A DNA stretch of 64,000 bases from contig NZ_KB894407.1 in assembly GCF_000374445.1 (NCBI RefSeq), forward strand, positions 186,001 through 250,000. The letters are read 5' to 3'. The notes below the pieces were generated by a model. It ran no database searches. It was not told the DNA's origin and saw nothing but the letters and a program-made list of their open reading frames with translations. This DNA is from Actinokineospora enzanensis DSM 44649. Lineage in GTDB: Bacteria > Actinomycetota > Actinomycetes > Mycobacteriales > Pseudonocardiaceae. Both the position numbers and the translations under genes were made by a program. Positions within the stretch are counted from its first letter, which is position 1. Each line of letters starts with the position of its first letter. Positions 14,164 to 39,891 of the stretch are shown one piece after another.

Positions 14164-15285
14164 TCAGCCGCGGCGGAAGAACTCGACCTCACCCAACGCG
14201 ATGTGTTTGCCGGGTCCCAGTCCGGCCGCCGCGCGCACGGTCAGCTGGATCTTCACCACATCGCTGATCGCGGTGTCCTGCTGCTGCGGACCGGGTTCGT
14301 CGGCCAACGGGATACTGAACGACTGCGTGGTGCCGTCGGCGGTGGTCACGGTCGCGTCCAGCAGGGTGGGCCGCGCCTCGGTGGCGAACTCCTCCGGCTT
14401 GGCCGACGGGCCGGTGTGCGTGACCACGGTCAGCAGCCGGATCGGCTGGTCGAAGGTGGCCTCCAGCGAGGCGCCCACGGCCGGTGACCCCCAGTACTTG
14501 TTGGTGGCACCGTCGGTGGCCGCCTTGGCCGGGTGACCGGGCAGTTCCGCGGTCGCGGACACCGAGACCGGCACCGCGGGCACGGTCTTGGACGTCTTGT
14601 CCAGCACGTCCTGCACCAGCCGCTTGCCCAGCGGGTACAGCGCGATCCCGGCGATCACCAGGGCTATCAGCAGCGCCAACAGGATCAGCCTGCGGGTCAG
14701 CGCGCCCGATCCGCCTGCCTTGCGCGACTTCTGCGCGGTCCTGGTCTCCTCGGCCGTCTCGGTCAACGGGGTGGCGCAGCGGCGACAGAACTTCCGCCCC
14801 GGCGGGTTGGGTGTGCCGCAGTTCGGGCACGGCGGGCCTTCGACCGCGGTGTCGGCGATCTCGACCCGCTTGGCCGGACGGGGCGCGACCGGCCGCGCGG
14901 GCTGTACCGGCCGCGGGTCGGTGTCCTCGGGGTCGGGACCCGCGGCGGGTGACGCCTGCGCGGGTTCGGACGGCGGCCTGGCGGGCGGTTGGACGAGGGC
15001 GCTACCCCGCGCCGGAGTCGGTTTTCCCCGGTCCGGGGCTTGCGGCGAGGACGGCTCCGCCGCTTGCGGCGAGGCGGGCGACTCGGCTTGGGGGGAGGTC
15101 GGTGGCTGGGCCGGTGACTCGGCGCCGGGCGGCGTGCCCGGTATGTCGCCGGGGGGCTCGGGTGTGGTCCGAGGTGTGACCGCCTGCTGGGGAGCGCCGG
15201 TCTCGCCCCAGCCCAGATAGGTGCCGCAGTTGCCGCAGAAGTCGTCGGTCGGTCCCACGGCCGCCCCGCACACCGGACATGTCAT
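14164..15285 (-). CDS. Zinc-ribbon, single-pass membrane protein at the end of the CIS operon (CisA-like)
   Basis: Protein of 373 residues built from an N-terminal zinc ribbon (CPVCGAAVGPTDDFCGNCG, residues 3-21), about 120 residues of Pro/Ala/Ser-rich disordered linker, a second zinc ribbon (CPNCGTPNPPGRKFCRRC), a basic stretch, one membrane helix (LILLALLIALVIAGIALYPL), and an extracytoplasmic beta-rich C domain of about 150 residues resembling F5/8-type carbohydrate-binding modules. Last gene of the injection operon; its ATG overlaps the preceding stop (ATGA 15282-15285). The architecture recalls the membrane protein CisA of Streptomyces contractile systems, proposed to connect the particle to the membrane; this identity is inference from layout and position. 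Confidence 0.8.
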   Translation of the reverse strand: MTCPVCGAAVGPTDDFCGNCGTYLGWGETGAPQQAVTPRTTPEPPGDIPGTPPGAESPAQPPTSPQAESPASPQAAEPSSPQAPDRGKPTPARGSALVQPPARPPSEPAQASPAAGPDPEDTDPRPVQPARPVAPRPAKRVEIADTAVEGPPCPNCGTPNPPGRKFCRRCATPLTETAEETRTAQKSRKAGGSGALTRRLILLALLIALVIAGIALYPLGKRLVQDVLDKTSKTVPAVPVSVSATAELPGHPAKAATDGATNKYWGSPAVGASLEATFDQPIRLLTVVTHTGPSAKPEEFATEARPTLLDATVTTADGTTQSFSIPLADEPGPQQQDTAISDVVKIQLTVRAAAGLGPGKHIALGEVEFFRRG

Positions 15286-15827
15286 GGCCGAGCCCTCCCG
15301 TCCGCCACCGCCACCGACCACCGCACGTGCAGCGGGCACGCGGTGGCCACGATCGAGCGCACCAGGTCCAGGTCGACCTCGCCGCCGTCCGACCACACCC
15401 GCACCGTGACCTCGCCGCCGCCGTCCAACCCGGCCCCGGGCGTCGCCGACCAGGTCGCGCCGGGCCCGTCCGAGACCTCGGCCCGCACGCCCGCGCACAG
15501 CCACAGCCGGGCGACCAGCCCGCGCGCCGTCCCGCGCCACCGGTGTGCGTCGGCGGCGCCCGCGACCGCAGCTCTGCGAACCGACTCCGGCCACCCGTCG
15601 GACATGTCCGCCGCCACCCAGGAGCCCAGCCACGCCACGAAGTCGGCGGGTGTGCACTCGGGCGCCAGGTAGGCAGCGAAGTTGTCCAAAGTGGACAACA
15701 AGGGTGCGAACACCACGTCGAGCCCGCCGGTGAGGCGTTGGACGAACCCGTCCGCCGCGTACACCGCCGGCAGGCTGTCGCCGAGCGGTCGGCGGGTGGG
15801 CAGGTCGGGGACGGCGGCACGGGTCAT
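15282..15827 (-). CDS. Phage tail protein I-like baseplate component of the CIS
   Basis: Protein of 181 residues similar in layout to P2 gpI-type proteins: MTRAAVPDLPTRRPLGDSLPAVYAADGFVQRLTGGLDVVFAPLLSTLDN, followed by the acidic FVAWLGSWVAADM region. It is expected to sit at the baseplate rim beside the J-like wedge protein. The gene overlaps both neighbours by four bases (15824-15827 upstream, 15282-15285 downstream), so its dosage is tied to theirs. The in-frame part upstream of ATG 15827 overlaps the J-like gene and is rejected as a start. Confidence 0.82.
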   Translation of the reverse strand: MTRAAVPDLPTRRPLGDSLPAVYAADGFVQRLTGGLDVVFAPLLSTLDNFAAYLAPECTPADFVAWLGSWVAADMSDGWPESVRRAAVAGAADAHRWRGTARGLVARLWLCAGVRAEVSDGPGATWSATPGAGLDGGGEVTVRVWSDGGEVDLDLVRSIVATACPLHVRWSVAVADGRARP

Positions 15828-17752
15828 GGCTGCTCCACCGCCACCTGGTGCTGGTGCGAGAAGACCAACGCGTTCGGCTCCAGCTCCACCCGTTCGGTCG
15901 CCGTGCCCCGCCGCCCGGTGATCGGGTCGGCCGGGAACAGCCGCACACCCTCGACGCTGTCCACGCCCGGCAACCGTTGCAGCACCGCGAACACCGCTCC
16001 GTAGTGGACGGACTTCCCGAACGGCCACCCGCGACCGTCGTCACCGCCCCGCAACGGGTCCAGGTAGTGATACAGCGCGTCCAACGCGTCCCGCTCGGCG
16101 TCCGGATCGGACGATCGGATTCGGGCGACCACCGTGACGCCCTGGTAGAACGGCGGTTCCACGGACACCCTGGTCCCGATCAACCGGCGTTCGTCCAACC
16201 GTGCCGCGATCGTGGCCAGCAGCTCGTCCGGCGGGATCAACTGCTCGAACCGCAGCCGCTCGTCCCCGCCGCCGACCGCCACGTTCGGCACCACCACGAC
16301 CCGTGCCGCCCCCGCTTCCTCGGGCATGCACCGGATCCGCGCGGCCGACGGCGCGGCCAGCCGGGCGAAGTGCTCGTAGTCCTCGGCCGTCACCGCGCGC
16401 TCCTGCACCCGGAGCTGGTGTGGCGCGCGGACCTTGGCCTCCGCGACCGTCTCACCGTCCACACCGCCCTGCGCCCCTTCGCGATTCTCCACCGACGCCA
16501 CATACGGCACCGAGCTGCGCAACACCGAGATGGCGCCTCTGGCCACGTTCCCCGCGCGTCCGCCGCCGGTGCGATAGCGGGGGACGCGCACGTGCGCGCC
16601 CTTCGTCGGCACGGCCCCGTAGGCGCGCATCGACCCGTCCGCCTCCCGCACGCTCGGCGGGAACTCCACCTCGCCGGTGGTGGCGTCCAGGGTCACGTGC
16701 CGGTCGTCCGGGCCGGAGGTCCCGAAGTGCTCGACCACCGTCCACTCCGCCCAACCGTCCGTGGTGGACACCTCGACCACTACCGGCGGACCGCCCGGCA
16801 GCACCGGCACCCTGGCCAGCCGCAGCCGCTGGCCGGGCACGCCGGTGGCCAGACCGAGGCCGGTGTCGACGATCGTCTCGGCGTGCTCGACCGCGGTCCA
16901 GCCCCCGATCGTGTCCACCTCGGCCACCCGCACGGTCGGCGACTCCGAGTAGAACGGCTGCCCCTCCGCCGGTTCGACCGCCCGGCAGCGCAACCAGCCC
17001 GCGCGCACCCCCGCCGACACCGACTCCACGTGCCCGGCCGGGATCCGCAGCACCACCTCGCCGGGCCGGTTCAACCCGCCCGTCGTGTCCTCGAACGCCT
17101 CGCAGACCTGCCAGCCGTCCGCGGTCCACGCCTCCCACACCAGCGGTGGCTGGCGCGGGTCCACGCCGATGCCCTCCACCCGGCTGTCCAGCCGGACCGC
17201 CACCACGCACCGCGGCACCGCGTCGGTCAGCCCGAACAGCAGCACGTCCCCGGGCGCGGGCCGGGCCTGGAAGCACGGCACGTCGTGGCCCGCGGCCAGG
17301 TCGTTGGTGCGGTCGGTGTGCTCGCCGGACGCGCTGGAGGTCACCAGCCGGTCCAACGCGCACGGCACGACCGGCAGCTCCTCGACGGTGGCGAACACGA
17401 CCGCGTCGCCCGCCTCGGTCTGCTGGGTCGCCACCTCGGTGCCCGCCGCCAGCGTCACGGTCTCCTGCCGGGCCGCCGACAGCCAGAACACCACCTCCGC
17501 GCGCGCCGCCGTCGGCGGGAACAGCCGGATGCCCAGCAGGTCCAGGAATGCCAGGTAGTGCCGCTCCGGCACCCGGTTGAGCCGGTAGATCGTCTGGTCG
17601 ACCATGTGCGCGAACGTCTCGATCAGCGTCACCCCGGGGTCGGACACGTTGTGGTCCGTCCACTCCGGACTGCGCTGCTGTACGTAGCGCTTGGCCTCGT
17701 CCACCAGCTGCTGGAAGCGGCGGTCGTCGAGGTTCGGGGCGGGCAGCGCCAT
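15824..17752 (-). CDS. Baseplate wedge protein J-like (CIS)
   Basis: Large baseplate protein of 642 residues, gpJ/Afp11-12-like. The N terminus (MALPAPNLDDRRFQQLVDEAKRYV...WTDHNVSDPGVTLIETFAHMVDQTIYRLNRVPERHY) is diagnostic of putative baseplate assembly proteins in actinomycete and cyanobacterial injection systems. Middle beta-rich domains and a C-terminal region follow (TAEDYEHFARLAAPSAARIRC). The start ATG 17752 overlaps the TGA of the gp25-like gene (TGATG); a GTG one codon earlier is also possible. It should form the wedge that links spike hub to sheath and triggers contraction. Confidence 0.9.
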   Translation of the reverse strand: MALPAPNLDDRRFQQLVDEAKRYVQQRSPEWTDHNVSDPGVTLIETFAHMVDQTIYRLNRVPERHYLAFLDLLGIRLFPPTAARAEVVFWLSAARQETVTLAAGTEVATQQTEAGDAVVFATVEELPVVPCALDRLVTSSASGEHTDRTNDLAAGHDVPCFQARPAPGDVLLFGLTDAVPRCVVAVRLDSRVEGIGVDPRQPPLVWEAWTADGWQVCEAFEDTTGGLNRPGEVVLRIPAGHVESVSAGVRAGWLRCRAVEPAEGQPFYSESPTVRVAEVDTIGGWTAVEHAETIVDTGLGLATGVPGQRLRLARVPVLPGGPPVVVEVSTTDGWAEWTVVEHFGTSGPDDRHVTLDATTGEVEFPPSVREADGSMRAYGAVPTKGAHVRVPRYRTGGGRAGNVARGAISVLRSSVPYVASVENREGAQGGVDGETVAEAKVRAPHQLRVQERAVTAEDYEHFARLAAPSAARIRCMPEEAGAARVVVVPNVAVGGGDERLRFEQLIPPDELLATIAARLDERRLIGTRVSVEPPFYQGVTVVARIRSSDPDAERDALDALYHYLDPLRGGDDGRGWPFGKSVHYGAVFAVLQRLPGVDSVEGVRLFPADPITGRRGTATERVELEPNALVFSHQHQVAVEQP

Positions 17753-18162
17753 CACAGCTCTCCGGCGGGCTCGGACGGGATGGTGTAGAAGGGGAACACC
17801 AGGTTGCGGGGGTCGTTGGTGGAGCGGATCGAGTAGCGGATGTCGATGTAGAGCACGCCCGCGTCGACCGTGTCGAAGGCCACCACCACATCGGTCACCT
17901 CGATCCGCGGCTCCCAGCGCTCCAGCGCGGCCCGCACCTCGAACCCGATCCGCCCGGCGGTGGCGCCGTCGCTGGGGGCGAAGACGAACTCGTGGATCCC
18001 GCAGCCGAACTCCGGCCGCATCGGCCGCTCGCCCGGGGCGGTGCCCAGGATCAGCCGGATGGCCTGCTCGATCTCGCGCTCGTGCCCGACCATGGCGATG
18101 CCGCCGGTGGTGGACACCCCGGTCGGGAAGGCCCAGCCGCGCCCGATGAACCGATCGCTCAC
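17752..18162 (-). CDS. GPW/gp25-like baseplate protein (CIS)
   Basis: Protein of 136 residues of the GPW_gp25 family (MVGHEREIEQAIRLILGTAPGERPMRPEFGCGIHEFVF, then ALERWEPRIEV), the inner baseplate wedge that nucleates sheath assembly in T4, T6SS and eCIS. The start is the GTG at 18162, overlapping the PAAR stop by four bases (GTGA, 18159-18162). Its length is normal for the family. The next gene, the J-like wedge, overlaps by one base. Confidence 0.92.
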   Translation of the reverse strand: MSDRFIGRGWAFPTGVSTTGGIAMVGHEREIEQAIRLILGTAPGERPMRPEFGCGIHEFVFAPSDGATAGRIGFEVRAALERWEPRIEVTDVVVAFDTVDAGVLYIDIRYSIRSTNDPRNLVFPFYTIPSEPAGEL

Positions 18163-18479
18163 GGCCGCTCCCCGATGATCACGTTGAGCGCGCCGGTGAG
18201 GATGGTGCCACCGCACGCGGTCGGGTCGCCCACACACGCCAGCGGCAACCCGCCCACCAGCACCATCCGCGGCCGCGGCGTGGCGATGACGCGGTTCACC
18301 GGGGTCATCGCGTAGTGGATGGCGCACTGGTGCAGGGAAGTGGACACGACCGGCGTGCGCCCCGCGATGAACACCGTCGCCAGGCGCGGCGACATCGGCA
18401 TCGGCGGGAACAGGACCCCGGTCGGGGGAGGGGTGCGGGTGTGCGTGGTGGTGTCGCCGATGCGGGCCGCGGGTGGCAT
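18159..18479 (-). CDS. PAAR-domain spike tip protein (CIS)
   Basis: Protein of 106 residues with the PAAR-like pattern MPPAARIGDTTTH near the N terminus and glycine-rich turns ending in GGTILTGALNVIIGE. PAAR proteins cap the VgrG trimer as a metal-stabilised cone that pierces the target membrane. No C-terminal effector extension is fused. It lies 126 bases downstream of the VgrG-like gene, and an inverted-repeat element occupies most of that gap, so its expression relative to the spike may be altered. Strong overlap with the downstream gp25-like gene. Confidence 0.9.
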   Translation of the reverse strand: MPPAARIGDTTTHTRTPPPTGVLFPPMPMSPRLATVFIAGRTPVVSTSLHQCAIHYAMTPVNRVIATPRPRMVLVGGLPLACVGDPTACGGTILTGALNVIIGERP

Positions 18480-18517: not shown

Positions 18518-18607
18518 TAGGCGCTGTCCGGTAAGTCTGGTGCGCGGGATCCGTGATCCGCCGCGCGGGCGCGGATAGCGTGTGCCGGACTTGCCGGACA
18601 GCGCCTA
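18518..18607. mobile_element. 90 bp TA-flanked inverted-repeat element (MITE-like)
   Basis: The ends are inverted repeats of 21 bases with one mismatch, 18517-18537 against 18588-18608; the outer 15 are perfect (CTAGGCGCTGTCCGG and complement). Both ends carry TA, the duplication typical of IS630/Tc1-like insertion, and an IS630 remnant exists at 10.3 kb. It contains no reading frame. The TAG stop of the VgrG-like gene is made from the element's TA. It could also fold as a long hairpin and act as an internal terminator or processing site of the operon mRNA. Movement is inferred from structure only. Confidence 0.55.
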
Positions 18608-20371
18608 GTTGATGCGGACCACGCGGCCCGCCAGCGAGGCCGTCAGCCCACCGTCGATATCCACGCTCCGCTGGCCGTTGATGGACACCGCCCCACCGAA
18701 CAGCGCCAGCTCACCCGATCCCGCGTCCAGCGTGATCCCCCGCGGCGTGAGCTGGATCGAGGCGAGCGAGCCGCGCCCACCCGGTCCGTGCACGGTCACG
18801 TCGATGGTGCTCGCGGTCTCGTTCATCCGGATCTCCAACCGGTCGTTCCCGCTGGCGATCCGTACCCCGGGCGGCCCGGTGAGCCCGTCGATCAGCTCCA
18901 GCCGGTGGCCCTTGCGCGACACCACCGACCGCCGGTTGACCCGCCCCGACCGGTCCACCAGCGGCATCGAGTGCGGCGACGGCACGTCCCGGCCGTTGTA
19001 GAGGCCGCCGATCACATACGGCTTGTCCAGGCAGCCCTGCTCGAAGGCGACCAGCACCTCGTCGTCGACCTCGGGGCTGAACACGCCGCCGCCACCCTGG
19101 CCGCCCCACTGCACGGTGCGCACCCAGTCGGTCTCGTAGGTGTCGTCCAGCCAGGGAAACGACAGCTTGACCCAGCCGCGCTGCCTGCCGCCGAGCTCCT
19201 TGACGTCGGTGACGATGCCGGACACGACGCCCGGGATGCGCGGTCCCCGGTCGATGTGCGGGGCGCTCGACGTGAGCGCGGCGAGCGAGCGGTCCGGGGT
19301 GGCGCTGACCATGACGGTCGTGCGGTAGCCCTGCTCGGGTTCGAGGGTGTGGTGCACGGCGGTGGTGGTGTACTTGCCGGAGAAGTCCGGGCCGACGTTG
19401 CCCAGGGCGATCGGGATCCCGGCGCGCAGCTGCGGGTCGCCCTCGGCGACGGCCTCGATCTCGCCGACGCCGGTGCTCACCGACTCGGCGCGGGACCTGG
19501 CGGTGGTCCTGGCCTCGGCCTGGTTGCCGTGCGGGATGTCGGTGACCAGCGCGGTGGCCTTGCCGAACGCGTTGGCCACCTTGGCGCCGGACATGCCCGG
19601 CTTGACCGTCTTGCTGGTCCCGGTGGTCTCGTAGGCGAGCACCTTGAGCTTGGTGTCGACGTTCCAGCCGCGCACGCGCACCGAGTTGGCCTGGTCGGAC
19701 GCGGTGAGCACGGCCCGCAGCGCGAGCAGGTTGCGCCCGTACTCCAGGACGAACCGGTTCTGCGCGGCCCGGGTGGTCGGCGCCGGGGCGGCGGTGGCCT
19801 GCTTGGGTCGCACGAACTCGATGTTGCCCTGCCGGTCGGCGCGCACCACGGCGCCGTGCTCGCGGGCGAGGTCCGCCAGGAAGTCCCAGTCGGACACCCC
19901 GCCCTGGGTGCGCTGGGTGTAGACGACCCGCTCCGCCTGCACCCGGCCCACGCCGAGTCCGGCACCCTTGGCCACCTCGGCCACGATCGTCTGGGCGGTC
20001 GCGTTCCGGAACGCCTTGACCCGCTTGCCCCGGGTGAGCCGGTGCACCTTGCTCAGCGCCCGCACGATGGTGAACGACCCGGTGCCGTCGGTGTCCAGTT
20101 CGAGCGCGGTCACCTCGCCGCTGAACAGCAGCTCCTGGGCGCTGCCGTCGGACAGGGCGACCGACACCTGCAGTGGCTTGCCGATGGTGATCCCGGTGTC
20201 CACCAGCAGCTGGTGGTACGGGTCGCGGAAGGTCAGCGTGGCGGCGTCGGGCAGGCCCACGTTCTCGTCGACCACCGTCCGCACCAGCATCACCTGCCAC
20301 GCCTGGGGCAGCGGCCCGGGAATGGCCACGATCGGGTCGGCCGCGTACGCGCGGGCCGCGCGCCCGGTCAC
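18605..20371 (-). CDS. VgrG-like spike protein (CIS)
   Basis: Central spike of 588 residues, combining gp27-like hub domains (residues 1-360, with a phage late control D-type pattern, SDWDFLADLAREHGAVVRADRQGNI) with a gp5-like OB domain (GIVTDVKELGGRQRGWVKLSFPWLDDTYETDWVRTVQWGGQGGGG...SPEVDDEVLVAFEQG) and a C-terminal beta-helix. No effector domain is attached. Start GTG 20371 overlaps the LysM stop (GTGA 20368-20371). The last codons read into a TAG contributed by the inverted-repeat element at 18518-18607, so the native C terminus may have been a few residues different. Confidence 0.93.
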   Translation of the reverse strand: MTGRAARAYAADPIVAIPGPLPQAWQVMLVRTVVDENVGLPDAATLTFRDPYHQLLVDTGITIGKPLQVSVALSDGSAQELLFSGEVTALELDTDGTGSFTIVRALSKVHRLTRGKRVKAFRNATAQTIVAEVAKGAGLGVGRVQAERVVYTQRTQGGVSDWDFLADLAREHGAVVRADRQGNIEFVRPKQATAAPAPTTRAAQNRFVLEYGRNLLALRAVLTASDQANSVRVRGWNVDTKLKVLAYETTGTSKTVKPGMSGAKVANAFGKATALVTDIPHGNQAEARTTARSRAESVSTGVGEIEAVAEGDPQLRAGIPIALGNVGPDFSGKYTTTAVHHTLEPEQGYRTTVMVSATPDRSLAALTSSAPHIDRGPRIPGVVSGIVTDVKELGGRQRGWVKLSFPWLDDTYETDWVRTVQWGGQGGGGVFSPEVDDEVLVAFEQGCLDKPYVIGGLYNGRDVPSPHSMPLVDRSGRVNRRSVVSRKGHRLELIDGLTGPPGVRIASGNDRLEIRMNETASTIDVTVHGPGGRGSLASIQLTPRGITLDAGSGELALFGGAVSINGQRSVDIDGGLTASLAGRVVRIN

Positions 20372-21066
20372 GCCGGGCTCCCGGCGGTGATCGGGATCAG
20401 GATCTCGGTGCCCGGCGGCAGGTCCTGCGGGTCGTCGATGTCGTTGGCCTCGGCGATCGCCCGCCAGGCGCCCGGGTCGCCGTACTCCTGCCAGGCCAGG
20501 TGCGCGAGGGTGTCGCCCGCGATGACGATGTGCGTGCGGCTGGGCTCCGGCGTGCCGGAGGTGGGGTTCTGGTTGGCCGTGTCGGCGGTGGCCTCCTCGA
20601 TGCCGATCGAGCAGGTGGCGCGCAGCGGGGTGCCGTCGGTGTCGAACAGCGTGTACTCCACCGAGAACCGGGAGAGCACCCCGTCGAACGAGGTGGTGCG
20701 GGCGCTGCCCCACTCGAACCGCACCCACGGGCTGGCGGGCTTCTTCGCGCGCAGGCTCTTCGGCGTCGGCACGCACCCGGTCATCAGCTGTTCGATCTTC
20801 TGCTCCACGGACTTGTCGTGCGTGTCGGTGGCGTCCAGGAGGATGTCCACCGACAGCGAGCGCGGCCCGGAGCCGACGAACTCCGGGGTGGACGACTGCG
20901 GCGCCATCCGCGCCGGGCTGCGCCGCCACTCGGTGCTCTTGGTCATCGACAGCTTGTTCGGGTTGAACTGGAACCTGACCGTCTCCAGCGTCGCCCCCGG
21001 TTTCGCGCCCACCTTCGGCGGCGGCTCCATGATCAGCAGCTGCGCCCGCGCCATGCCCCGGCTCAC
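20368..21066 (-). CDS. LysM-containing CIS tube/baseplate connector (Afp7-like)
   Basis: Protein of 232 residues. The first 165 resemble the CIS tube-associated family (VRFQFNPNKLSMTKSTEWRRSPA...PEFVGSGPRSLSVDILLDATDTHDKSV), and a C-terminal LysM domain follows (THIVIAGDTLAHLAWQEYGDPGAWRAIAEANDIDDPQDLPPGTEILIP). In eCIS this protein joins the inner tube to the hub, and LysM may touch peptidoglycan. The start is GTG 21066, since it overlaps the upstream stop (GTGA) like its neighbours; ATG 21054 is the alternative. Conserved position directly before VgrG. Confidence 0.9.
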   Translation of the reverse strand: MSRGMARAQLLIMEPPPKVGAKPGATLETVRFQFNPNKLSMTKSTEWRRSPARMAPQSSTPEFVGSGPRSLSVDILLDATDTHDKSVEQKIEQLMTGCVPTPKSLRAKKPASPWVRFEWGSARTTSFDGVLSRFSVEYTLFDTDGTPLRATCSIGIEEATADTANQNPTSGTPEPSRTHIVIAGDTLAHLAWQEYGDPGAWRAIAEANDIDDPQDLPPGTEILIPITAGSPA

Positions 21067-21488
21067 GACGCCCGCAGTCCCTCGTGCGCGATCTCCAGCG
21101 TCTCCACCGCCGCCTGTGGCGACCCCGGGTCGAACGACGGCCCCTGCCAGCTCACCGGCACGATGCCGAGCACCTGCCAGCGCGCGATCGGGGTCAGGTT
21201 CGGCTCCAGCGCCACGATCTCGCCGTTCTTCCGTTCGACCTTGCGCATCAGCTGCTCCAACCAGCGCGAGACTTTCGTGGTGTCGGCGGTGACCGGCCGG
21301 GACAGCGTGATGTTCGTCCAGCTGATCCGGGTCGGCAGCGCCCAGGTGAACCCGTTGTTCCCGCCCTCGGCGAACTGCTCCACCTCCACCTGGGCGCCCA
21401 GGCCCGAGCAGGTGTGGAACGCGCCGAGGTCGTCGCCGCCGATGGCGAGCCGGAAGAACATGCTGCTGGCGAAGATGCGGTCGGTCAT
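21063..21488 (-). CDS. Inner tube protein 2 (Hcp/gp19-like, CIS)
   Basis: Tube protein of 141 residues, phage T4 gp19-like family: MTDRIFASSMFFRLAIGGDDLGAFHTCSGLGAQVEVEQFAEGGNN. In Afp/PVC-type systems a second, less abundant tube protein forms the initiating ring between the baseplate hub and the main tube; its place beside the LysM and VgrG genes fits that. It lies nine bases after the long disordered gene and overlaps the LysM gene. The main tube is the paralogue at 24920-25360. Confidence 0.92.
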   Translation of the reverse strand: MTDRIFASSMFFRLAIGGDDLGAFHTCSGLGAQVEVEQFAEGGNNGFTWALPTRISWTNITLSRPVTADTTKVSRWLEQLMRKVERKNGEIVALEPNLTPIARWQVLGIVPVSWQGPSFDPGSPQAAVETLEIAHEGLRAS

Positions 21489-26903: not shown

Positions 26904-27102
26904 GCTCGCTCCTTCGTGTGCCCGGTTGGCTGTGCTCCACCCTGGTCGCCCGCGCGGGCCCGGCGGCAGGGCTCGCGGACCCCAGTCGTGGGCAACGCGG
27001 TTGCCTCTTCGGCCACGTTCCCGGCCGGGGAAACCGGGTTGCCCGGCCGTGTGCCCGGCGGTCCCTGGGGCTCGGCGGGTGCGTTCCAGTAGGACTGGTC
27101 GT

Positions 27103-31833: not shown

Positions 31834-33741
31834 TCATGGGGTGGAGAGCCAGGGGTGGAATTCCGTGTCCCGGATGAGGTGGCCCTGTTTCAGGTGTTCC
31901 TCCCGGATCGACAGCATCAGGTCCCGCATCGTCACCGATCTCCCGGCTGCTGCGGCGAGGTAGGCCGCGCCGACGGCGCAGGCGCGGATGGCGCCGCCTG
32001 CCAGTTCGAAGCGGTCGGCGCAGGTGGTGAGGTCGACGTCGGCTGCGCGGGGCAGGTCGGGGCCCAGGCATGTCTCCCACAACAGCCTGCGGTGTGCGGC
32101 GTCCGGTACCGGGAAGGCGGCGATCACGTCCAGGCGACGGGTGAAGGCCTCGTCCAGGTTGGCGCGGAGGTTGGTGGTCAGTACGGCGATTCCGTCGAAG
32201 GATTCCATGCGCTGCAACAGGTATGCGGATTCCATGTTCGCGTACCGGTCCCGCGAGTCGCTCACCGCCGAGCGTTTGCCGAACAGGGCGTCGGCCTCGT
32301 CGAACAGCAGGACGCCGTTGACGCCCGCCGCTTCGGCGAATACCCGGTCGAGGTTCTTCTCCGTCTCGCCGATGTACTTGTCCACGACCGTCGACAGGTC
32401 GACCACGTACAGGTCCATGCCCAGGTCCGCCGCCACGACCTCGGCCGCCATCGTCTTCCCGGTGCCCGACTCGCCCGCGAACAGCGCCAGCACGCCCCGT
32501 CCGCGTCCGCCGCCGGGGCGCATTCGCCACGTGCCCAGGACCGTGTCCCGGAATCGTGCCCGTGCCGCCAGTTCCCGCAACTGGTTGCGTGTCCGTTCCG
32601 GGACGACCAGGTCGTCCCAGCCGACCGCGGGCGTGATCCGTCGTGCGAGGCGGGACAGTCCGGCGCCGTTCTGGCTGCGGATGCCCTCCCGCAGGTCGGC
32701 CACGGTGATCGCGCGCCCGTCCCGTTCCGCCAACCGGGACGCGACCGAGACGGCCGCGCGCATCTGGCCGCCGGTCAGTCGGAACGCGGACAGCTCGTTC
32801 TCCGGGAATCCGTCCAGCACGGTCGCCCAACTCGGGGCGGGACCGGCCTCGACCGGCACCGGTGTCACCGGTGCCCATTTCGGGTCCCACGCGCCGGAAC
32901 CGTGCAACACCAGCGATACCTCGTGCGTCAACAACTCCCGCAACGCCGCGGGCGGCATCTCGTCGGCCGGTCCCACGACCAGGCACGCCCGCCGCAACCG
33001 GGCCTCCCGCACCAGCAACGGGACAAGTTCCACCGCGTTGCTCACCCCGCCGAGTGCAACAACCACCGCCGGGCCTGCAACTTCCGGTTCTCCGCGTACA
33101 TAGACCGGCATTCCCGGCCGCACCGTGGCAATCGACAGCTCACAGCCGGAATCCGGGACTTCCCGCGGGCCGGGCAGGCCCGGCTCGATCCGGGCGCATC
33201 GGGCCAGTCGCGGGTCCAGGTCGTGCGATCCCAGCAGGTGTGCCGACACGGTGTCGGGTACGCGCAACTCCCGGGCCAGGAAAGGTTGATCCTCGGCGAG
33301 TACCTCCACCAGCCCGCCCGCCACCAGTGGCGCGTGTGGGAGGAAACGGAACCGTCCGGGACCGGCCTGGGACTGTCCGCACAGCGACAACGCCAGCCCG
33401 ATCGTCGGTCGCCTGCGGGTGACGTCGTCGTTGAGGTAGCCGTAGAGCCGCTCGAACCGCGCGTCCAGGTCGGGGGCCAGGGCGACCAGCAGGAACTCCA
33501 GGTCCAGGCCGGTCAGCCCGAACGCGGCCGCCAGCTCGCCGTCCACCGCGTCCGGGATGTCGATCTCGGCAGGCACGTCCGGCGGCCCGGCCAGCAACTC
33601 CCGGACCGTCTCGTCCGTCAGGTACAGGCCGCGGTACGGGTCGGTCAGGCCGGGATCCCGGGCCGACCGGTCCGCCACGGCCTTGCGGACGCGGTGTTCC
33701 ACCGCGCCCAGGCGGTGCCACAGACGGGACAGCTCGGTCAT
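31834..33741 (-). CDS. AAA+ ATPase of the CIS (Afp15-like)
   Basis: Protein of 635 residues: an N-terminal non-catalytic half with a degenerate first ATPase-like region, then a full AAA+ module with Walker A (GESGTGKT), Walker B (GVLLFDEADALFGKR), sensor 1 (VLTTNLRANLDEAF) and an arginine finger region (TRRLDVIAAFPVPD). Each eCIS carries one such ATPase, believed to help assemble or recycle the particle. Start ATG 33741 overlaps the DUF4255 stop (ATGA 33738-33741). It is the last gene of the second CIS operon. Confidence 0.93.
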   Translation of the reverse strand: MTELSRLWHRLGAVEHRVRKAVADRSARDPGLTDPYRGLYLTDETVRELLAGPPDVPAEIDIPDAVDGELAAAFGLTGLDLEFLLVALAPDLDARFERLYGYLNDDVTRRRPTIGLALSLCGQSQAGPGRFRFLPHAPLVAGGLVEVLAEDQPFLARELRVPDTVSAHLLGSHDLDPRLARCARIEPGLPGPREVPDSGCELSIATVRPGMPVYVRGEPEVAGPAVVVALGGVSNAVELVPLLVREARLRRACLVVGPADEMPPAALRELLTHEVSLVLHGSGAWDPKWAPVTPVPVEAGPAPSWATVLDGFPENELSAFRLTGGQMRAAVSVASRLAERDGRAITVADLREGIRSQNGAGLSRLARRITPAVGWDDLVVPERTRNQLRELAARARFRDTVLGTWRMRPGGGRGRGVLALFAGESGTGKTMAAEVVAADLGMDLYVVDLSTVVDKYIGETEKNLDRVFAEAAGVNGVLLFDEADALFGKRSAVSDSRDRYANMESAYLLQRMESFDGIAVLTTNLRANLDEAFTRRLDVIAAFPVPDAAHRRLLWETCLGPDLPRAADVDLTTCADRFELAGGAIRACAVGAAYLAAAAGRSVTMRDLMLSIREEHLKQGHLIRDTEFHPWLSTP

Positions 33742-34403
33742 CGGCCGCCCCGACGTCGGCGGATCGGGACCCGGGGACGGGACGCGGCGAAACCGTCGGA
33801 CGGGGCGGAACCCTCGTAGCGCAGGCGACGGTCCGGGTCGGCGCCGGTGCGGACCACCAGGCCGTCGGTGACCGGCGGGCCGACCGGCTTGCGTTCGCGC
33901 GCCAGCGGTGCGACGACCCGCAGGTTCACCGCCGCCTTCAACCGGCCCTCCAGTGCCGACCACACCTCGGTCGCGGCCTCCCCGTCGGTCACCGGGCCCG
34001 CCGACTGGAACAGCACCGACCGGCCGAGCTCGGCCAATGACCCGGTCAACCACCGAGGTTGCAACACGTCCCGACCCGCGACCGCTCGGAGTACATCGGC
34101 GAGCAATCGGTGCTCGTCGCGTGGTCGCGAGGTCCACACCGTGGCCAGGTAGGACAGCTGGAACCACAGCGGCGGCTCGCGACGGCCGAGCGTGGTGCCC
34201 TCCTCGTCCACCTCGTCCTGGGCGCCGGTGAGTCTGCGCGTGGTGTCCTCGCGCAGGTCGTAGAGAAACACGCTGATCGTCGGCGAGGTCAGCTTGGCCG
34301 CCCACTCCTTGGTCGGCGCCTCGAAGTCCAGGTCGACGCCCTCGGCGGGCAGGCCCTCCTCGGCCAGCATCAACCGCAGCGCCTCGTCCACCTCGTCGAT
34401 CAT
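33738..34403 (-). CDS. DUF4255 (Pvc16-like) tail terminator/cap protein (CIS)
   Basis: Protein of 221 residues with the DUF4255/Pvc16_N pattern: MIDEVDEALRLMLAEE...LDFEAPTKEWAAKLTSPTISVFLYDLREDTTRR, then PPLWFQLSYLATVWTSRPRDEHRLL. In eCIS this protein caps the distal end of tube and sheath. A basic, disordered C-terminal tail (from about residue 190) is extra relative to the core. Start ATG 34403. It is 16 bases behind the secreted propeller gene and overlaps the ATPase gene, so the three form one operon. Confidence 0.9.
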   Translation of the reverse strand: MIDEVDEALRLMLAEEGLPAEGVDLDFEAPTKEWAAKLTSPTISVFLYDLREDTTRRLTGAQDEVDEEGTTLGRREPPLWFQLSYLATVWTSRPRDEHRLLADVLRAVAGRDVLQPRWLTGSLAELGRSVLFQSAGPVTDGEAATEVWSALEGRLKAAVNLRVVAPLARERKPVGPPVTDGLVVRTGADPDRRLRYEGSAPSDGFAASRPRVPIRRRRGGR

Positions 34404-34419: not shown

Positions 34420-37400
34420 TCATCGGCGGCTCACCACGCCCGGCGGCGCGATCGTGCCGCTGACCACCAGGAACGGTGTCGTCACCGGCCCGAACCCCGG
34501 CCCGCTCGCGGTGATGACGCGCGGCCCGGTCTGGTCCTTGGCCAGGATCAGCAGCTGGGCGGTGAACCTCCCGTCACCGCGCGGGAACGTCGGTGCTGCG
34601 GCGGCCGTGATGCCCGGCGTCCAGGTCAGCACCACCGGCGCGCCCGGCGGGAAGTCCTCGCCGCGCACCGACGTCACGAATCCGGGTTTACCGATCGGCG
34701 GCACCGCGACAATGCGCGGCAACAGCACCCGCAACGTGGTGCGGGCCTGGTTGTCCCGTCGGTCGTTGTCGGAACCGGTGGTCTGCAACGTGGCGGTGAT
34801 CGTCGCGGTCAGCGGCGTGTTCGGACGCAACAGCACCTGCGTGACCGAGGTGGCGCCCGGGGCAAGATCGGGCACCGGGCACCCGGCCACGGCACAACCC
34901 GGTGGCAGTGCTCCGATCGGGATCTGCGGGGGCAATCCGAACCCGAGCCGCAGTCCGGTCGCGATGGACCCGCCGGTGTTGCGCACCGTGTAGGTCACCA
35001 CCGTCGAACCGCCCACATAGGACGGATTCGGCTGCGCGACCACCGCGACACCGGGCCCGGCGGGCGGTGGTGGTGCCGGTGCGGGCGGTGGAGGCGGCGG
35101 GATCGTCGGCGGTGTCGTGGGTGGCGGCGGCGGGGGCGGGACGTCGACCGGGACGAGGGTGCTGTCCGAGTTGTCGCCCGGCCGGGTGTCGAGCACGCTG
35201 CCCGTCACCGTCCAGTCCAGCACGTGCGTCCCGGGGCCGACCGGCGCCAGATCGGCGGTCACGGTGACCGCGGCGCCCGGTTGGAGCAAGCCCAGATCGC
35301 ACCGAGGCAGGTCGGAGGAACACGCGCCGCGCAATCGGATCAATCGGAGCCCGTCCGGCACCGCGACCTGCACGATCGTGACCGGCGACGGCCCGGGTCC
35401 CCGGTTGGTCACGGTCACCGTCACGGAGGTGTCGGTCCCGACCGTCGCGCGCGCGGCGACCGGCGGCGCGGTGAGGTCGAGATCGACCGCCAGCTGCCAG
35501 GTCGGCTCCTTCTGCCGTCCGGGCAGGTGCTCGCCCAGCCGGGTCAGCTTCCGGGTGGTCAGGTCGAAGATCACCAGCGACTCGGCCGAGTTGGGGTCAC
35601 GCGCCCGCCGTTTGGTCAGCACGGCCTGGCTGCCGTCCGGCGAGAACGAGATGTCGCGCGGCTGGAACGGGCCGTTCGGCGCGGTCAACGGACCGGCGCA
35701 CGAGGTCTGGTCGGTCGGCAGCAGCACCTCGCAGCCCAGGTTCGACAGGGTGACCCGCACCAGCCCGTCGTTCTCCCGGTTGAACACGACCGTGCGCCCG
35801 TCGGGGGCGAACGCGGGACTGTCGTCGGTCGTGTCGCACGCGAACCCGCACACCGCCGCGCTGATGTCCCGCTGCCGGTCCAGCCCGTCCGCCCGCGCGG
35901 TCCACACGTGCTGCGTGCGCGGCTGCCCCTGCGGCCCGCCCGCCACCGTGCCCCGGCTGAACGCCAGCACCTTCCCGTCCGGCGACCAGGCAGGCTGCGC
36001 GTCGTCCTCGTCCGCGGTCGGGTCCGGGTTCCGCAGCCGGGCCAGCACCTGTCCGTCGTCGACCCGCACGATCAGGATCCGGCCCGGCCCGCCCTCGCGG
36101 TTGGGCGCGCCGGGGGAGCGGCGCGCGATCGCCACCTTCGTCCCGTCCGGCGACCACGCGGCGTCGGTCTCCCAGTCGCCGGGTTTGCGATCGGCGAGCG
36201 GCAGCGGCGCGGCGTTGGAGCCATCGGCGTCGGTGAGCCAGATCCGCTGCACCCGCCTGCCGTCGATCGTCTCGAACCGGCTGACCGCGATCCGCCGCCC
36301 GTCCGGCGAGAAGCTCTGCCGCTGCGTCCACGGGTCGAACCCGTCGCCCGGGTCGAACAGCTTGCTGCTGTCGGTGCGCGCGGCCGGATCCTCGGTGAGT
36401 ACGGGGATGCCGAAGTCGCGCGGATCGGCTCCGTCCGGCCGGATGTCCTGCATCGTGGCGACGTTGCGGGTGATCGGGTCGGTGCGGGTGACGACGAGCT
36501 TGCCGTCGAGCCAGGTGGGCGAGTCGACGCGGCGGTCCTCGGTGAGGAGGACCACCGGGTCGGCCTGGGTCGGGAAGGCGGCCTGGACTCGGTAGACGAT
36601 ATCGACCGTGCCGCGCGGTTCCGGATCGCCGGGACAGCCGCAGACGTGGTTGAGACTGAGGAAGAGCAGTGTCCGACCGTCGGGCATCCAGACGGGCCAA
36701 CGGGTCTGCCAGCCCGCGCGGGTGCCGGTGAAGAGCGGGCCCGCGGTGGAACGGATGGTCTGGTCGTCCTCTGTGGACGGATTGCCGTCGGTGTCGAGGG
36801 TGTAGGCGATGATGTCGTCGGTGGGGTTCCAGGCCGGTTGGATCGCGCCGCCGACGGGCTCGTTCGTGACCTGGGCGGCCGCGAGGTGGGAGACCGGGGT
36901 GCGATAGACCTGCCAGTTCCCGTTGGCGTCACAGGAATAGGCGATCTCGCTGCCGTCGGGGGAGAAGCTGGGCCACTCCTCGTTGTCCGGGGTGTCGGTC
37001 AGCCTGCGCAGGTCGGTGCCGTCGGTGCGGACGAGCCAGAGGTCCCGCTGGTCGTCACCGGCCGCGTCGAAGGCCACCCACCGGCGGTCGGGGGACAGGT
37101 GCGGGTGCGCGGCGTCCATGCCCGTGGTGAGCCTGCGGATGTCGCCGTCGGCGGTCCGCAGGTAGACCTGCGGCTTGGCCTCGTCGCGGAGGCTGGTGAA
37201 GACCAGGAGGTCGCCGCTCGCGAACGAGTTCTGGTCGTAGTGCGCGGGAACCGTGTCGAAGATCGGATCCGAGTGCTCGGTCGACACCGCGACCCCGATG
37301 CCCCGGTGCTCGGTCCCGGCGTACGCGATCCGCTCGGTCGGCGCGGCCACAGTGGACGGAACCGGCCCCTGCCCCGCGGCGGGCACCTCGCACAGCGCCA

Positions 37401-37452
37401 TCACCGCGACGAGCACGGCCCCCAACCGGACAAGCCCTCCACGTCGCTCCAC
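34420..37452 (-). CDS. Secreted WD40-like/TolB beta-propeller with C-terminal CARDB/DUF11 domains
   Basis: Exported protein of 1010 residues. GTG 37452 gives a basic N terminus plus hydrophobic signal peptide (LVRLGAVLVAVMALCEVPAAG); longer starts spoil it. Many PD40/TolB repeats follow (for example DAAHPHLSPDRRWVAFDAAGDDQRDLWLVRTDGTDLRRLT, EEWPSFSPDGSEIAYS) over about 650 residues. Two CARDB/DUF11-like Ig domains are joined by a Pro-rich linker, and a last beta domain follows (residues about 920-1010). Not a standard structural CIS part, yet it begins the operon with DUF4255 and the AAA+ ATPase. It may act as an exterior receptor or envelope component; that is inference. Confidence 0.85.
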   Translation of the reverse strand: MERRGGLVRLGAVLVAVMALCEVPAAGQGPVPSTVAAPTERIAYAGTEHRGIGVAVSTEHSDPIFDTVPAHYDQNSFASGDLLVFTSLRDEAKPQVYLRTADGDIRRLTTGMDAAHPHLSPDRRWVAFDAAGDDQRDLWLVRTDGTDLRRLTDTPDNEEWPSFSPDGSEIAYSCDANGNWQVYRTPVSHLAAAQVTNEPVGGAIQPAWNPTDDIIAYTLDTDGNPSTEDDQTIRSTAGPLFTGTRAGWQTRWPVWMPDGRTLLFLSLNHVCGCPGDPEPRGTVDIVYRVQAAFPTQADPVVLLTEDRRVDSPTWLDGKLVVTRTDPITRNVATMQDIRPDGADPRDFGIPVLTEDPAARTDSSKLFDPGDGFDPWTQRQSFSPDGRRIAVSRFETIDGRRVQRIWLTDADGSNAAPLPLADRKPGDWETDAAWSPDGTKVAIARRSPGAPNREGGPGRILIVRVDDGQVLARLRNPDPTADEDDAQPAWSPDGKVLAFSRGTVAGGPQGQPRTQHVWTARADGLDRQRDISAAVCGFACDTTDDSPAFAPDGRTVVFNRENDGLVRVTLSNLGCEVLLPTDQTSCAGPLTAPNGPFQPRDISFSPDGSQAVLTKRRARDPNSAESLVIFDLTTRKLTRLGEHLPGRQKEPTWQLAVDLDLTAPPVAARATVGTDTSVTVTVTNRGPGPSPVTIVQVAVPDGLRLIRLRGACSSDLPRCDLGLLQPGAAVTVTADLAPVGPGTHVLDWTVTGSVLDTRPGDNSDSTLVPVDVPPPPPPPTTPPTIPPPPPPAPAPPPPAGPGVAVVAQPNPSYVGGSTVVTYTVRNTGGSIATGLRLGFGLPPQIPIGALPPGCAVAGCPVPDLAPGATSVTQVLLRPNTPLTATITATLQTTGSDNDRRDNQARTTLRVLLPRIVAVPPIGKPGFVTSVRGEDFPPGAPVVLTWTPGITAAAAPTFPRGDGRFTAQLLILAKDQTGPRVITASGPGFGPVTTPFLVVSGTIAPPGVVSRR

Positions 37453-37865: not shown

Positions 37866-38531
37866 TCAGATCAGGCCCTGGCGGAGCGCGTAGCCGACGG
37901 CGTGGGCGCGGTTTCGGAGGTGGAGACGGGTGGTGATCTCGTGCAGGATGTTCTTCACCGTCCGTTCCGAGTAGGACATCTTGTCGGCGATCTCGCCGGT
38001 GTCGAAACCCTCCGCGATCAGGCGCAGGACGTCGACCTCGCGGGCGGTCAGCGTCGAGAGGGTCAGGCCGCGCGGGTCGAGTACCTCGCGCTGGAGGCGG
38101 CCGACGTGGTCGATGAGCTGGCCGAGGAGGTCGCCGGGGAGGACGCCCTCGCCGCGGGACATGGCGGTGACCATGTCGGTGAGGCGGTCGGCGCTGGCCG
38201 TGGCGCGGCGCAGGACGGCCGCGACGCCGCATTCCAGGGCGGTCTGCAGGGCGGTGCGTTCGAAGCGGCCGACGACCAGGCCGACGCGGGAGGTGGTGTG
38301 CCGGAGTTTGCGCAGGACCTGGACCGCCGAGTCGTCGACCTGGTCGACCACCACGAGGGCGACCGCGGCGGTGTGCGCGTCGGTGTCCGCGAGCAGCTCG
38401 ACCGTCGGCTGGTGGCGGAGCTGGTGCACGACGCCCGCGCGCAGGATCGGGTCCTCGGCGTGGACGGCGACGGCGACCCGGTGCGTCGGGCCGCCGTAGG
38501 TGGTGGTGATCGGTTCGATCGTGGTGGTCAT
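37866..38531 (-). CDS. LuxR-family regulator with atypical receiver domain
   Basis: Regulator of 221 residues: an N-terminal receiver-like domain and a C-terminal LuxR helix-turn-helix (LTAREVDVLRLIAEGFDTGEIADKMSYSERTVKNILHEITTRLHLRNRAHAVGYALRQG). The receiver looks degenerate: the usual switch Lys is replaced by Arg (AAVLRRATAS), and the expected phosphorylation site reads VVVDQVDD. It may thus work without phosphorylation. ATG 38531 is preceded by GGAGGGAGAG. No kinase is adjacent. It sits between the second CIS operon and a divergent membrane protein gene and is the best candidate for a pathway-specific regulator of the locus. Confidence 0.88.
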   Translation of the reverse strand: MTTTIEPITTTYGGPTHRVAVAVHAEDPILRAGVVHQLRHQPTVELLADTDAHTAAVALVVVDQVDDSAVQVLRKLRHTTSRVGLVVGRFERTALQTALECGVAAVLRRATASADRLTDMVTAMSRGEGVLPGDLLGQLIDHVGRLQREVLDPRGLTLSTLTAREVDVLRLIAEGFDTGEIADKMSYSERTVKNILHEITTRLHLRNRAHAVGYALRQGLI

Positions 38532-38622
38532 GTCTCTCCCTCCAAGGCAGGGCAATCGGTGTGCCCCGGCTGTGCCCGCGCGCCCCTGCCCGCCTCCACG
38601 GCACGGGCCTAGCGTTTCGCGG

Positions 38623-39891
38623 GTGACGACTTCAGCTGAGTTGGAACTCGCGACGGTGGCCGTCGCCCCCGGCGGCGAGGCCACCACGACGCTGACCGTG
38701 CGCAACGACACCGACATCGTCGAGGCGTACACGTTCGAACCGGTCGGGCCGTGCGCGCCGTGGACCACGGTCGAGCCGGACCGGTTGTCGCTCTACCCGG
38801 GTACCGCCGAGACGGTGGTCGTCCACCTGCGTCCGCCGCGCTCGGCCGAGGTGCGCGCGGGCGAGACGCCGCTGGGCATCCGGGTGCTGCCGGTGGAGCG
38901 TCCGGACCTGGTGACGGTGCCGGAGACCACGGTCGTGATCGAGGCGTTCGGGCAGCTCGACGCCGCGCTGCGGCCGACCCGGCGGCGTACCTGGAAGTCG
39001 GCCCGGTTCCAGGTGGAACTCGGCAACCGGGGCAACACGCCCACCACGGTGACCCTCGTGCCCGTCGACACGGGCGACGATCCGCGCATCCGGGTCGACC
39101 CGACGACCGTCGACCTCGGACCCGAGGCTACCGCCTCGGCCGGTGTGCGGGTGCGAACGCGAGGGATCGTCTGGTTCGGCAAGAACACCAGCTTCCCGGT
39201 GCCGATCACCGCCACCACGGCCGAGGGCGAACGCCACGAGCTCGCCGGTGAGCTCGTGCGCATGCCCGTGCTGCCGCGTTGGCTGCTGGCCCTGCTCGCG
39301 CTGCTGGTGGCGTTGCTGCTGCTGTGGTTCACGCTGGTCCGCCCGGCCGTGCGCAGTTCCGCGCGGGAGGCGGCGGAGACCAAGGCGAAGGAAATGGTGC
39401 AGGATGGCCAGATCCAACCCGGACCGTCCAACACCGCCGCCCCGCGCCCCGGCGGCGGTCAGCCCCAGCCCGGTGGCGGCGGCGGGGGCGGTGACGGCCA
39501 GGGCGCCTCGCCCGGCACCGGTGGCGGGGTCAGCAAGCAGAGCTCCGGCACCATCGAGGTGCGCACCGGCGGCGGCCAGCCCGGCAGCGGCACCTACGTG
39601 GTCCCGCCCGGCAAGACCTTCCTGATCACCGACCTGGTGCTGGCCAACTTCCAGGGCGACGAGGGCACCCTCACCGTGGTGTTCGGCGACCGGGTGATCA
39701 CCACCATCGCGCTGGAGACCTTCCGCAACCAGGACTACCACTGGGTGACCCCGATCGAGATCACCGAGAACGGGGCCGTGACCGCCAACGTCACCTGCGA
39801 CCGCCCCGGCACCCCCGCCTCCGGCAAACAGGCCGAGACCTGCACGGAGGTGCTGAACGTCAGCGGCGAACTGCGCGATCTGCCGCGTTAG
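38623..39891 (+). CDS. Single-pass membrane protein with N-terminal Ig-like domains
   Basis: Protein of 422 residues with no signal peptide. Two Ig-like/CARDB-type domains (residues about 1-215, LATVAVAPGGEATTTLTVRNDTD...FQVELGNRGNTPTTVTLVPVDTGDDPRIRVDP), one membrane helix (LPRWLLALLALLVALLLLWFTLV), a charged stretch and a Gly/Pro/Gln-rich linker come before a C-terminal beta domain with two cysteines (NVTCDRPGTPASGKQAETC). The N-terminal domains should be cytoplasmic and the C domain outside. GTG 38623 gives a sensible N terminus (VTTSAELELATV). It flanks the CIS locus, divergent from the LuxR gene; an anchor for the particle is possible but unproven. Confidence 0.75.
   Translation: MTTSAELELATVAVAPGGEATTTLTVRNDTDIVEAYTFEPVGPCAPWTTVEPDRLSLYPGTAETVVVHLRPPRSAEVRAGETPLGIRVLPVERPDLVTVPETTVVIEAFGQLDAALRPTRRRTWKSARFQVELGNRGNTPTTVTLVPVDTGDDPRIRVDPTTVDLGPEATASAGVRVRTRGIVWFGKNTSFPVPITATTAEGERHELAGELVRMPVLPRWLLALLALLVALLLLWFTLVRPAVRSSAREAAETKAKEMVQDGQIQPGPSNTAAPRPGGGQPQPGGGGGGGDGQGASPGTGGGVSKQSSGTIEVRTGGGQPGSGTYVVPPGKTFLITDLVLANFQGDEGTLTVVFGDRVITTIALETFRNQDYHWVTPIEITENGAVTANVTCDRPGTPASGKQAETCTEVLNVSGELRDLPR

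Follow-up and report, generated by a model that had tools for sequence, protein, structure and literature searches.

Which machine is encoded between positions 14,164 and 39,891 of a 64,000-nucleotide stretch of Actinokineospora enzanensis DSM 44649 (contig NZ_KB894407.1, positions 186,001 to 250,000; hereafter the window), is it intact, and which of its parts are local to this genome? A first-pass annotation, made from the letters and their open reading frames, had proposed an apparently complete contractile injection system (CIS) in two operons, to be placed with CIS and extracellular CIS (eCIS) rather than with phages or type VI secretion systems (T6SS). This assignment holds and can be made more exact: judged from its genes, the cluster most probably (probability about 0.82) encodes an intact CIS of the Streptomyces type, and not a phage or T6SS. 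The type is already known, and the cluster is a further member of it, ordinary in kind; the label class IId is the one that the literature gives to its closest relatives, not the outcome of placing the cluster itself in the published class tree.

Gene content and order of the cluster

Genes were called by codon usage and the frames then read. All core parts scored above the curated Pfam cut-offs: the sheath, two gp19-type tube proteins, a CIS_tube/LysM protein, a VgrG-like protein, PAAR, gp25, Baseplate_J, Tail_P2_I, Pvc16_N (DUF4255) and an AAA ATPase. The part set of class IId (sheath, two tube paralogues, hub, gp25, J, P2-I, Pvc16-type cap and AAA ATPase) is present, as are all the core parts listed in the annotation and its two operons, one for sheath and baseplate and one for cap and ATPase. 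The 23 reading frames examined, which run from the CisA-like gene through an NB-ARC regulator, hold no internal stop, and no core part is missing. The 626-residue frame at 14164-16044 does not stand for a single gene; only the CisA-like gene (14164-15285) within it is real, and the P2-I gene (15282-15827) precedes it. Four genes go unnamed in the annotation: those for the CisA-like protein, the eCIS_core protein, the chaperone-like protein and a membrane protein with an immunoglobulin (Ig)-like domain and a transmembrane (TM) segment (Ig-TM protein; Table 1).

The best PDB matches of the sheath, cap, P2-I, J, VgrG and tube proteins are chains of entries 8bky, 8bl4, 9gtp, 9gtr and 9gts, which we take to be the S. 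coelicolor CIS particle, well ahead of the next structures if any. The sheath, J, VgrG, P2-I and cap proteins align to 8bky, 9gtp, 9gtr and 9gts over most of their length, and the sheath scored 737 bits with the best structure versus 178 with Pvc2 and 150 with Afp2. Phage relatives are remote: the best phage sheath among the matches listed is 26% identical, and the J protein had no match in 50,697 phage records. The closest structures and the distance to phages together argue for a Streptomyces-type CIS.

Among the 30 proteins Pfam-scanned at 9.75-45.4 kb there were no terminase, portal, capsid, lysis or Tss membrane genes, in agreement with the annotation. A T6SS was rejected, since neither the TssJ/L/M membrane complex nor ClpV was found among these proteins. 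The same scan and the phage comparison revealed no head, terminase, integrase or lysis gene and no close phage relative of a contractile prophage; the sole integrase-like match was a DDE transposase-type protein fragment at 10337-10696, to the left of the cluster. Neither a fibre-like gene nor a typical tape measure was seen among the proteins scanned, as expected for class IId.

We compared the window with the best 80 of at least 571 confirmed relatives, to which three short stretches of the same genome (one of them part of the window) were added, giving 83 loci. The counts are lower bounds, many loci being cut by contig ends or by the 10 kb flank, and they are not independent, since many of the 80 are closely related. 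The sheath, tube 1, 155-residue protein and DUF6760 genes were each matched in all 83 loci, the propeller in 72, AAA in 71, LuxR in 71, the cap in 69, Ig-TM in 66 and eCIS_core in 42. The CisA-like gene was matched in 8 of 83 and was mostly out of range. The annotation had taken the propeller protein for an unusual local part; instead, LuxR, propeller and cap genes follow each other codirectionally in 64/64 loci with all three matched. Ig-TM and LuxR genes point away from each other in 64 of 65 loci. Where AAA stands upstream of the sheath gene on its strand (55 loci), the two are 0.14-7.0 kb apart; the cap operon is reversed in 16 others. The organisation of the cluster is conserved over several families.

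The 8.1 Mb genome, in which the window lies on contig C5, gave three matches to the sheath family. Two more CIS loci lie at C1:402000-421000 (L124) and C3:14800-34200 (L126, L127). Both have CisA-like, Ig-TM, LuxR and propeller-C-domain genes of their own, and their sheaths are 67% and 61% identical, respectively, to that of the window. In a sheath tree the window and its two paralogues fall on separate branches; only this placement was used, as seven rows were odd in composition, mostly with very long branches, and were probably wrong longest-frame picks. Actinokineospora is already listed among the genera with several eCIS operons (PMC8213781). Sheath relatives 61-75% identical lie on Streptomyces and Streptantibioticus plasmids (NZ_CP108387, NC_016113 and others, among the best 8 of 186 matches), so the cluster may be able to travel.

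An AfsR-like HTH/NB-ARC/TPR regulator (40123-42528) adjoins the Ig-TM gene; it is kept in the two closest same-genus loci, G010 (78%) and G003 (71%), and was matched in 3/83 loci. A strong hairpin lies inside the tail operon between the VgrG and PAAR genes (18490-18600; z-score -3.9 for 18470-18620), and no known RNA family matched the window at Rfam gathering scores.

Table 1. Features of the cluster, with positions in the window.
Feature	Position	Strand	Basis and remarks
CisA-like bitopic protein, 373 residues	14164..15285	-	two zinc ribbons, one TM helix near residue 200, C-terminal NADase_discoid/F5-8-type domain; NF047619 42.3 bits (cut-off 38)
baseplate wedge, Tail_P2_I	15282..15827	-	Pfam; PDB 9gtp_E, E 1.4e-30
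baseplate wedge, J-like	15824..17752	-	Pfam; PDB 9gtp_1K, E 6e-265
gp25 baseplate wedge	17752..18162	-	Pfam
PAAR tip	18159..18479	-	Pfam
VgrG-like hub/spike	18605..20371	-	Pfam; PDB 9gtr_q, E 7e-122
CIS_tube + LysM connector	20368..21054	-	Pfam, run on frame 20368-21063
second tube protein, tube initiator position	21063..21488	-	Pfam
disordered 928-residue protein, candidate length ruler	21498..24284	-	no Pfam or PHROG match; conserved ends, [VIL]QR motifs
DUF6760, 52 residues	24286..24444	-	Pfam
155-residue protein, tail-assembly-chaperone family	24441..24908	-	PHROG profile phrog_508
tube protein	24920..25360	-	Pfam; PDB 8bl4_v, E 9e-23
sheath	25377..26903	-	Pfam; PDB 8bky_A, E 8e-221, nearly whole length
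operator-like dyad, sheath promoter	26990..27006	-	promoter comparison
stand-alone eCIS_core (DUF4157) adaptor, 170 residues	27103..27615	+	Pfam; HELTH motif
P-loop kinase (AAA_33/CPT-like), local insertion, possible cargo	27623..28174	+	Pfam, locus comparison
GAF-SpoIIE phosphatase, local insertion	28532..29704	+	Pfam, locus comparison
HATPase anti-sigma-type kinase, local insertion	29731..30177	+	Pfam, locus comparison
AAA+ ATPase with WHD domain	31834..33741	-	Pfam
Pvc16_N (DUF4255) cap	33738..34403	-	Pfam; PDB 9gts_0A, E 5e-46
propeller protein	34420..37452	-	start codon uncertain; 37452 picked for signal-peptide-like N-terminus
LuxR-type (GerE) regulator, presumed cluster regulator	37866..38531	-	profile match, locus comparison
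operator-like dyad between LuxR and Ig-TM genes	38550..38566	.	promoter comparison
Ig-like/TM/beta-domain membrane protein, Sco4256-like by architecture	38623..39891	+	homologues, profile, TM prediction

A promoter dyad and a variable slot beside the sheath gene

Comparison of the promoters yielded a dyad, RGGCA-N7-TGCCY, which occurs in the 220 bases before the sheath gene in 79/80 loci and before the Ig-TM gene in 44/49. Within the same distance it was found before LuxR in 48 of 61 and before eCIS_core in 18 of 41 loci, many of the latter within the intergenic region shared with the sheath gene, and it was not found upstream of the propeller (0/62), AAA (0/63) or cap (0/67) genes. Spacers of 5, 6, 8 or 10 bases did not occur in the sheath or Ig-TM upstream regions; a 9-base variant occurred in 7/80 and 1/49 of them, respectively. 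The 80 sheath sites carry 60 different spacers, with the centre at a median of 95.5 bases before the start codon. Before the Ig-TM gene the centre lies 64.5 bases from the start, and a third half-site lies one turn further in 40 of the 44.

The window holds the dyad at two places only, those in Table 1. Taken alone the window is a poor test, 6 of 100 shuffles reaching three matches, and genome-wide the dyad is not specific (50 strand matches vs 31 for a reversed control). Across the 80 loci, 35 of 159 dyads lay elsewhere, 26 of them in loci without a complete Ig-TM frame, versus about 14 expected (a Markov control gave 3 in 0.32 Mb). Neither of the two paralogous loci of this genome showed the dyad ahead of its sheath gene. 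In S. coelicolor the sheath transcript is reported to start 32 bases before the start codon and to need the LuxR protein SCO4263 (PMC2000904); by analogy with this start, the centre of the dyad would fall near -63, a position suited to an activator. The available text of PMC2000904 and PMC8505568 holds no description of the site, nor was one met elsewhere in the open-access literature searched, and it appears to be little described.

On the other side of the sheath promoter lies the eCIS_core gene. Most eCIS_core proteins encoded near a relative's sheath gene are long (median of 575 residues for the 41 extracted, three of them below 200), and their ends vary; among 42 scanned, Endonuclea_NS_2 was found in three, ACD in one and Ntox11 in one. 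The stretch between AAA and sheath is a cargo slot. G010, the same-genus locus nearest to the window (sheath 89% identical), has no more than about 40 bases between eCIS_core and the end of the AAA gene; the slot of G003, whose sheath is also 89% identical, gave no eCIS_core match.

The window carries in this slot a 4.2 kb insert with the P-loop kinase, GAF-SpoIIE and HATPase genes and a G+C-poorer stretch (down to 57%). The slots of G010 and G003 hold none of the three genes, and these were matched in none of the 83 loci (0/80 of the named ones). That the kinase and the SpoIIE/HATPase partner-switch pair are local, as first annotated, is thus borne out; nothing that we found ties them to the machine. 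With 0/80 named loci, the pair was rejected as a conserved CIS regulator. Among five SpoIIE homologues from relatives (1.5 kb flanks), only one had a HATPase match beside it, in the opposite orientation. The kinase gene starts 7 bases downstream of eCIS_core. Homologues up to 72% identical occur at 18 places in relatives, and the 1.5 kb flanks of the nine fetched matched no other gene of the cluster. Alignment with the best homologue starts at residue 3, which leaves no N-terminal extension in the copy beside the CIS. At the edge of the insert (30180-31833), a G+C-poorer mosaic of MazG-like, DUF5753-like and TPR-like fragments was read by eye, with no profile search.

The disordered protein and the envelope set

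An open frame fills the gap between DUF6760 and tube 2 in 66/66 loci in which tube 2 was matched downstream, with a mean of 994 residues (sd 124, one outlier of 487). One tube 2 cross-match (L055) is not counted among the 66; with the window and three same-genus loci added, 70 such proteins were compared. They are rich in Ala, Pro, Gly, Arg and Ser. The protein of the window had no Pfam or PHROG match, nor did it show a domain, a TM-like segment or an HExTH motif; it is 29-34% identical to the copies of the closest relatives, vs 97% for tube 1 there. The C-terminal segment holds LARxL in 69/70 proteins and R[ED]RxG in 70/70. In the middle, defined by trimming 60 residues from each end, [VIL]QR occurs 647 times in 69 proteins, at least four times in each, whereas shuffled sequences gave 25 on average and 41 at most. 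The motif was rejected as proof by itself, being enriched also in the AAA (68 vs 20), LuxR (121 vs 16) and propeller (51 vs 31) families; in AAA and LuxR its copies cluster at a few aligned positions, whereas in the disordered proteins many copies lie in a poorly aligning middle. The paralogue on C1 has nine copies. That on C3 (L126/L127, 726 residues) carries a stretch near its C-terminus, AHELTHAAQQR, like the motif of eCIS_core (DUF4157) proteins, hinting at a link between the two families.

The 155-residue protein encoded upstream matched a tail assembly chaperone family in 27 of the 28 members scanned (28 of 81), with E 2e-6 at best and 7e-5 for the window. Phages keep the gene of this chaperone ahead of that of the tape measure, and the chaperone binds the tape measure protein. 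The disordered protein has the gene order of a tape measure, following the chaperone-like gene and preceding the hub genes; it has neither the homology nor, from its composition, the helical or coiled-coil character of one. A typical tape measure is described as absent from the Streptomyces system, though sheaths contract to a uniform length of about 140 nm and the particles of non-contractile mutants are likewise uniform, at about 230 nm (PMC10066040); a particle length of 300 nm is given in PMC10020575, and particles without Sle1/2 showed no apparent defect (PMC13277306). A chain of 1000 residues spanning 230-300 nm would rise 2.3-3.0 Å per residue, which is possible for an extended, proline-rich chain. 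We therefore suggest, tentatively and with more doubt than confidence, that the 'missing' tape measure is a disordered ruler of about 1000 residues, its approximate length, ends and about nine [VIL]QR motifs kept and its middle changing almost without constraint, which would be handled by the phage-type chaperone of the adjacent gene and anchored at the tube initiator by a C-terminal amphipathic segment; [VL]QR, shared with the eCIS_core adaptors, would be a docking motif for tube or hub. Against a ruler stand the C3 paralogue, which has no [VIL]QR motif, the mostly empty lumen of the Sco4256-4258 mutant (PMC10066040), and the unknown particle proteins listed in PMC10020575 (sco4242, sco4256 and sco4251), among which a homologue does not appear; the S. 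coelicolor homologue would, we infer, be SCO4249 or 4250. No description of the disordered protein and no paper on DUF6760 were found in the open-access literature searched.

Three further proteins point to the envelope. The CisA-like protein, with its two zinc ribbons, single TM helix and C-terminal NADase_discoid domain, is encoded directly after the baseplate genes and thereby corresponds in position and architecture to the CisA-type bitopic protein of class IId; SCO4242 is described with a matching architecture (PMC10020575), and the CisA gene as standing after the baseplate genes (PMC12237407). The Ig-TM protein is 51-60% identical to 35 homologues over its length, a single TM-like segment is predicted in 47/49 homologues, and no second copy was found within the loci. 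Its profile (E 0.001) matched 24 of 61 relatives' genomes, 23 of them at E <1e-20. These 23 are all 22 genomes whose sheath belongs to this lineage (E <1e-130, a line drawn after viewing the list) and G049, which is 82% complete and in which no sheath was found; the 24th match is weak (8e-4), in a genome without a sheath (G033), and the seven genomes with only distant sheaths had none. By architecture and co-occurrence it is putatively of the Sco4256 type. SCO4256 is entered as a membrane glycoprotein in one table row of PMC6593405, which would fit a place in the envelope better than a purely luminal one.

The propeller protein is TolB-like, yet below the TolB equivalog cut-off, and 53/62 homologues have a hydrophobic N-terminal segment. 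In paralogous loci, the two others of this genome among them, its C-terminal domain is found close to the Ig-TM gene. The propeller is a frequent, not a universal, partner, as the domain was found in 15/22 lineage genomes (and weakly in two others). One cytoplasmic machine thus appears often to be encoded together with three proteins of or beyond the membrane. Little on the propeller as an exported partner was found in open-access main texts, in a search that was not exhaustive.

Alternatives, proposed mechanism and known systems

A prophage or tailocin remnant is by far the least credible alternative. The tail parts are all phage-derived and PHROG tail families match them, but, beside the remote sheath and missing J matches, CIS_tube, Pvc16_N and eCIS_core genes are present, and an organisation conserved over several families speaks against a prophage. 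We also consider it improbable, though less so, that this is an extracellular CIS released against other organisms, like AFP or PVC: core parts and the eCIS_core cargo family, with its Endonuclea_NS_2, ACD and Ntox11 matches, are the same, but a membrane-anchored CisA-like protein stands after the baseplate genes in place of a fibre gene, and the Pvc2 and Afp2 sheaths match far more weakly. Streptomyces-type CIS, by comparison, are described as cytoplasmic, fired by stress and dependent on the membrane protein CisA (PMC10066040, PMC12237407). Several points count against assigning the cluster to this type. The proposed homologies to CisA and Sco4256 rest on architecture, position and co-occurrence; purified particles contain CisA according to PMC10020575 and lack it according to PMC12237407; the propeller is not universal in the lineage; and fibre genes are reported for many Actinobacteriota systems, so that the phylum alone does not exclude an extracellular role (PMC12923769). 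The 23 genes hold no TTA codon, unlike those under bldA control in S. coelicolor, and such control was rejected here.

Two proteins may be cargo. For the Ig-TM protein this is a serious possibility, a little short of even: it has been proposed for Sco4256-4258, whose deletion left about 85% of tube lumens empty and abolished stress death (PMC10066040), and Sco4256 is present in purified particles (PMC10020575). The conservation, single copy and TM-like segment of the homologues are, however, unlike variable cargo, and the glycoprotein entry (PMC6593405) also favours an envelope partner. That the kinase and the 170-residue adaptor form an adaptor/effector pair like Sle2/Sle1 seems unlikely. The kinase sits in the variable slot directly downstream of the adaptor, and adjacency to DUF4157 is described as an effector trait (PMC11297309); yet its homologues occur elsewhere, at the nine places with flanks fetched, without other cluster genes, the copy here has no N-terminal extension, and the insert also carries regulator-like fragments.

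For a Streptomyces-type CIS, homology suggests that the tail would be assembled in the cytoplasm: the chaperone, the disordered protein and the tube initiator would meet on the hub and baseplate, and tube, sheath and Pvc16-type cap would follow. The LuxR regulator of the cluster would bind the dyads before the sheath operon and the Ig-TM gene. Under envelope stress, the CisA-like protein may let the particle dock at the inner membrane and fire, as modelled on CisA of S. coelicolor, and release cargo that, by the example of Sle2 in S. lividans, would be coupled to the tube initiator by the small eCIS_core protein. The exported propeller and the Ig-TM protein would be partners in the envelope and may make up the outer half of the docking site.

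New here are the dyad before the sheath and Ig-TM genes and the disordered protein of about 1000 residues after the chaperone-like gene; the conserved accessories (on-switch, exported partner, ruler candidate) seem little described in the open-access literature. Three questions become testable in laboratory Streptomyces: how CIS length is controlled at 230-300 nm without a typical tape measure, where the switch site of the cluster lies, and whether propeller and Ig-TM proteins make up the envelope half of the site at which CisA docks. A disordered ruler, if real, would mean that a contractile tail can control its length without a helical tape measure.

With PVC, AFP and AlgoCIS the cluster shares the core tail parts; their fibres and typical tape measure were not found here. 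Like the S. davawensis CIS with Tme (PMC11126660), it has, immediately ahead of the baseplate genes, a gene for a very long and mostly disordered protein; unlike Tme, the protein of the window yielded no domain, TM-like segment or HExTH, while one paralogue in the genome has AHELTH. Like SLP of Streptomyces lividans, it has a small eCIS_core gene divergent from and adjoining the sheath gene, as Sle2 (PMC13277306), but the neighbour of the adaptor is a P-loop kinase here and a coiled-coil Sle1-type protein there. The closest system is CIS-Sc of Streptomyces coelicolor (SCO4242-4260; class IId). The cluster differs from it in the absence of TTA codons, a single Ig-TM gene divergent from LuxR, the kinase/partner-switch insertion and a PAAR gene, which is absent in S. 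coelicolor and present in S. venezuelae (PMC10066040). It shares with CIS-Sc the closest solved structures, the want of a fibre and of a typical tape measure, and the full set of sheath, two tubes, hub, wedge, cap, AAA ATPase and CisA-type protein.

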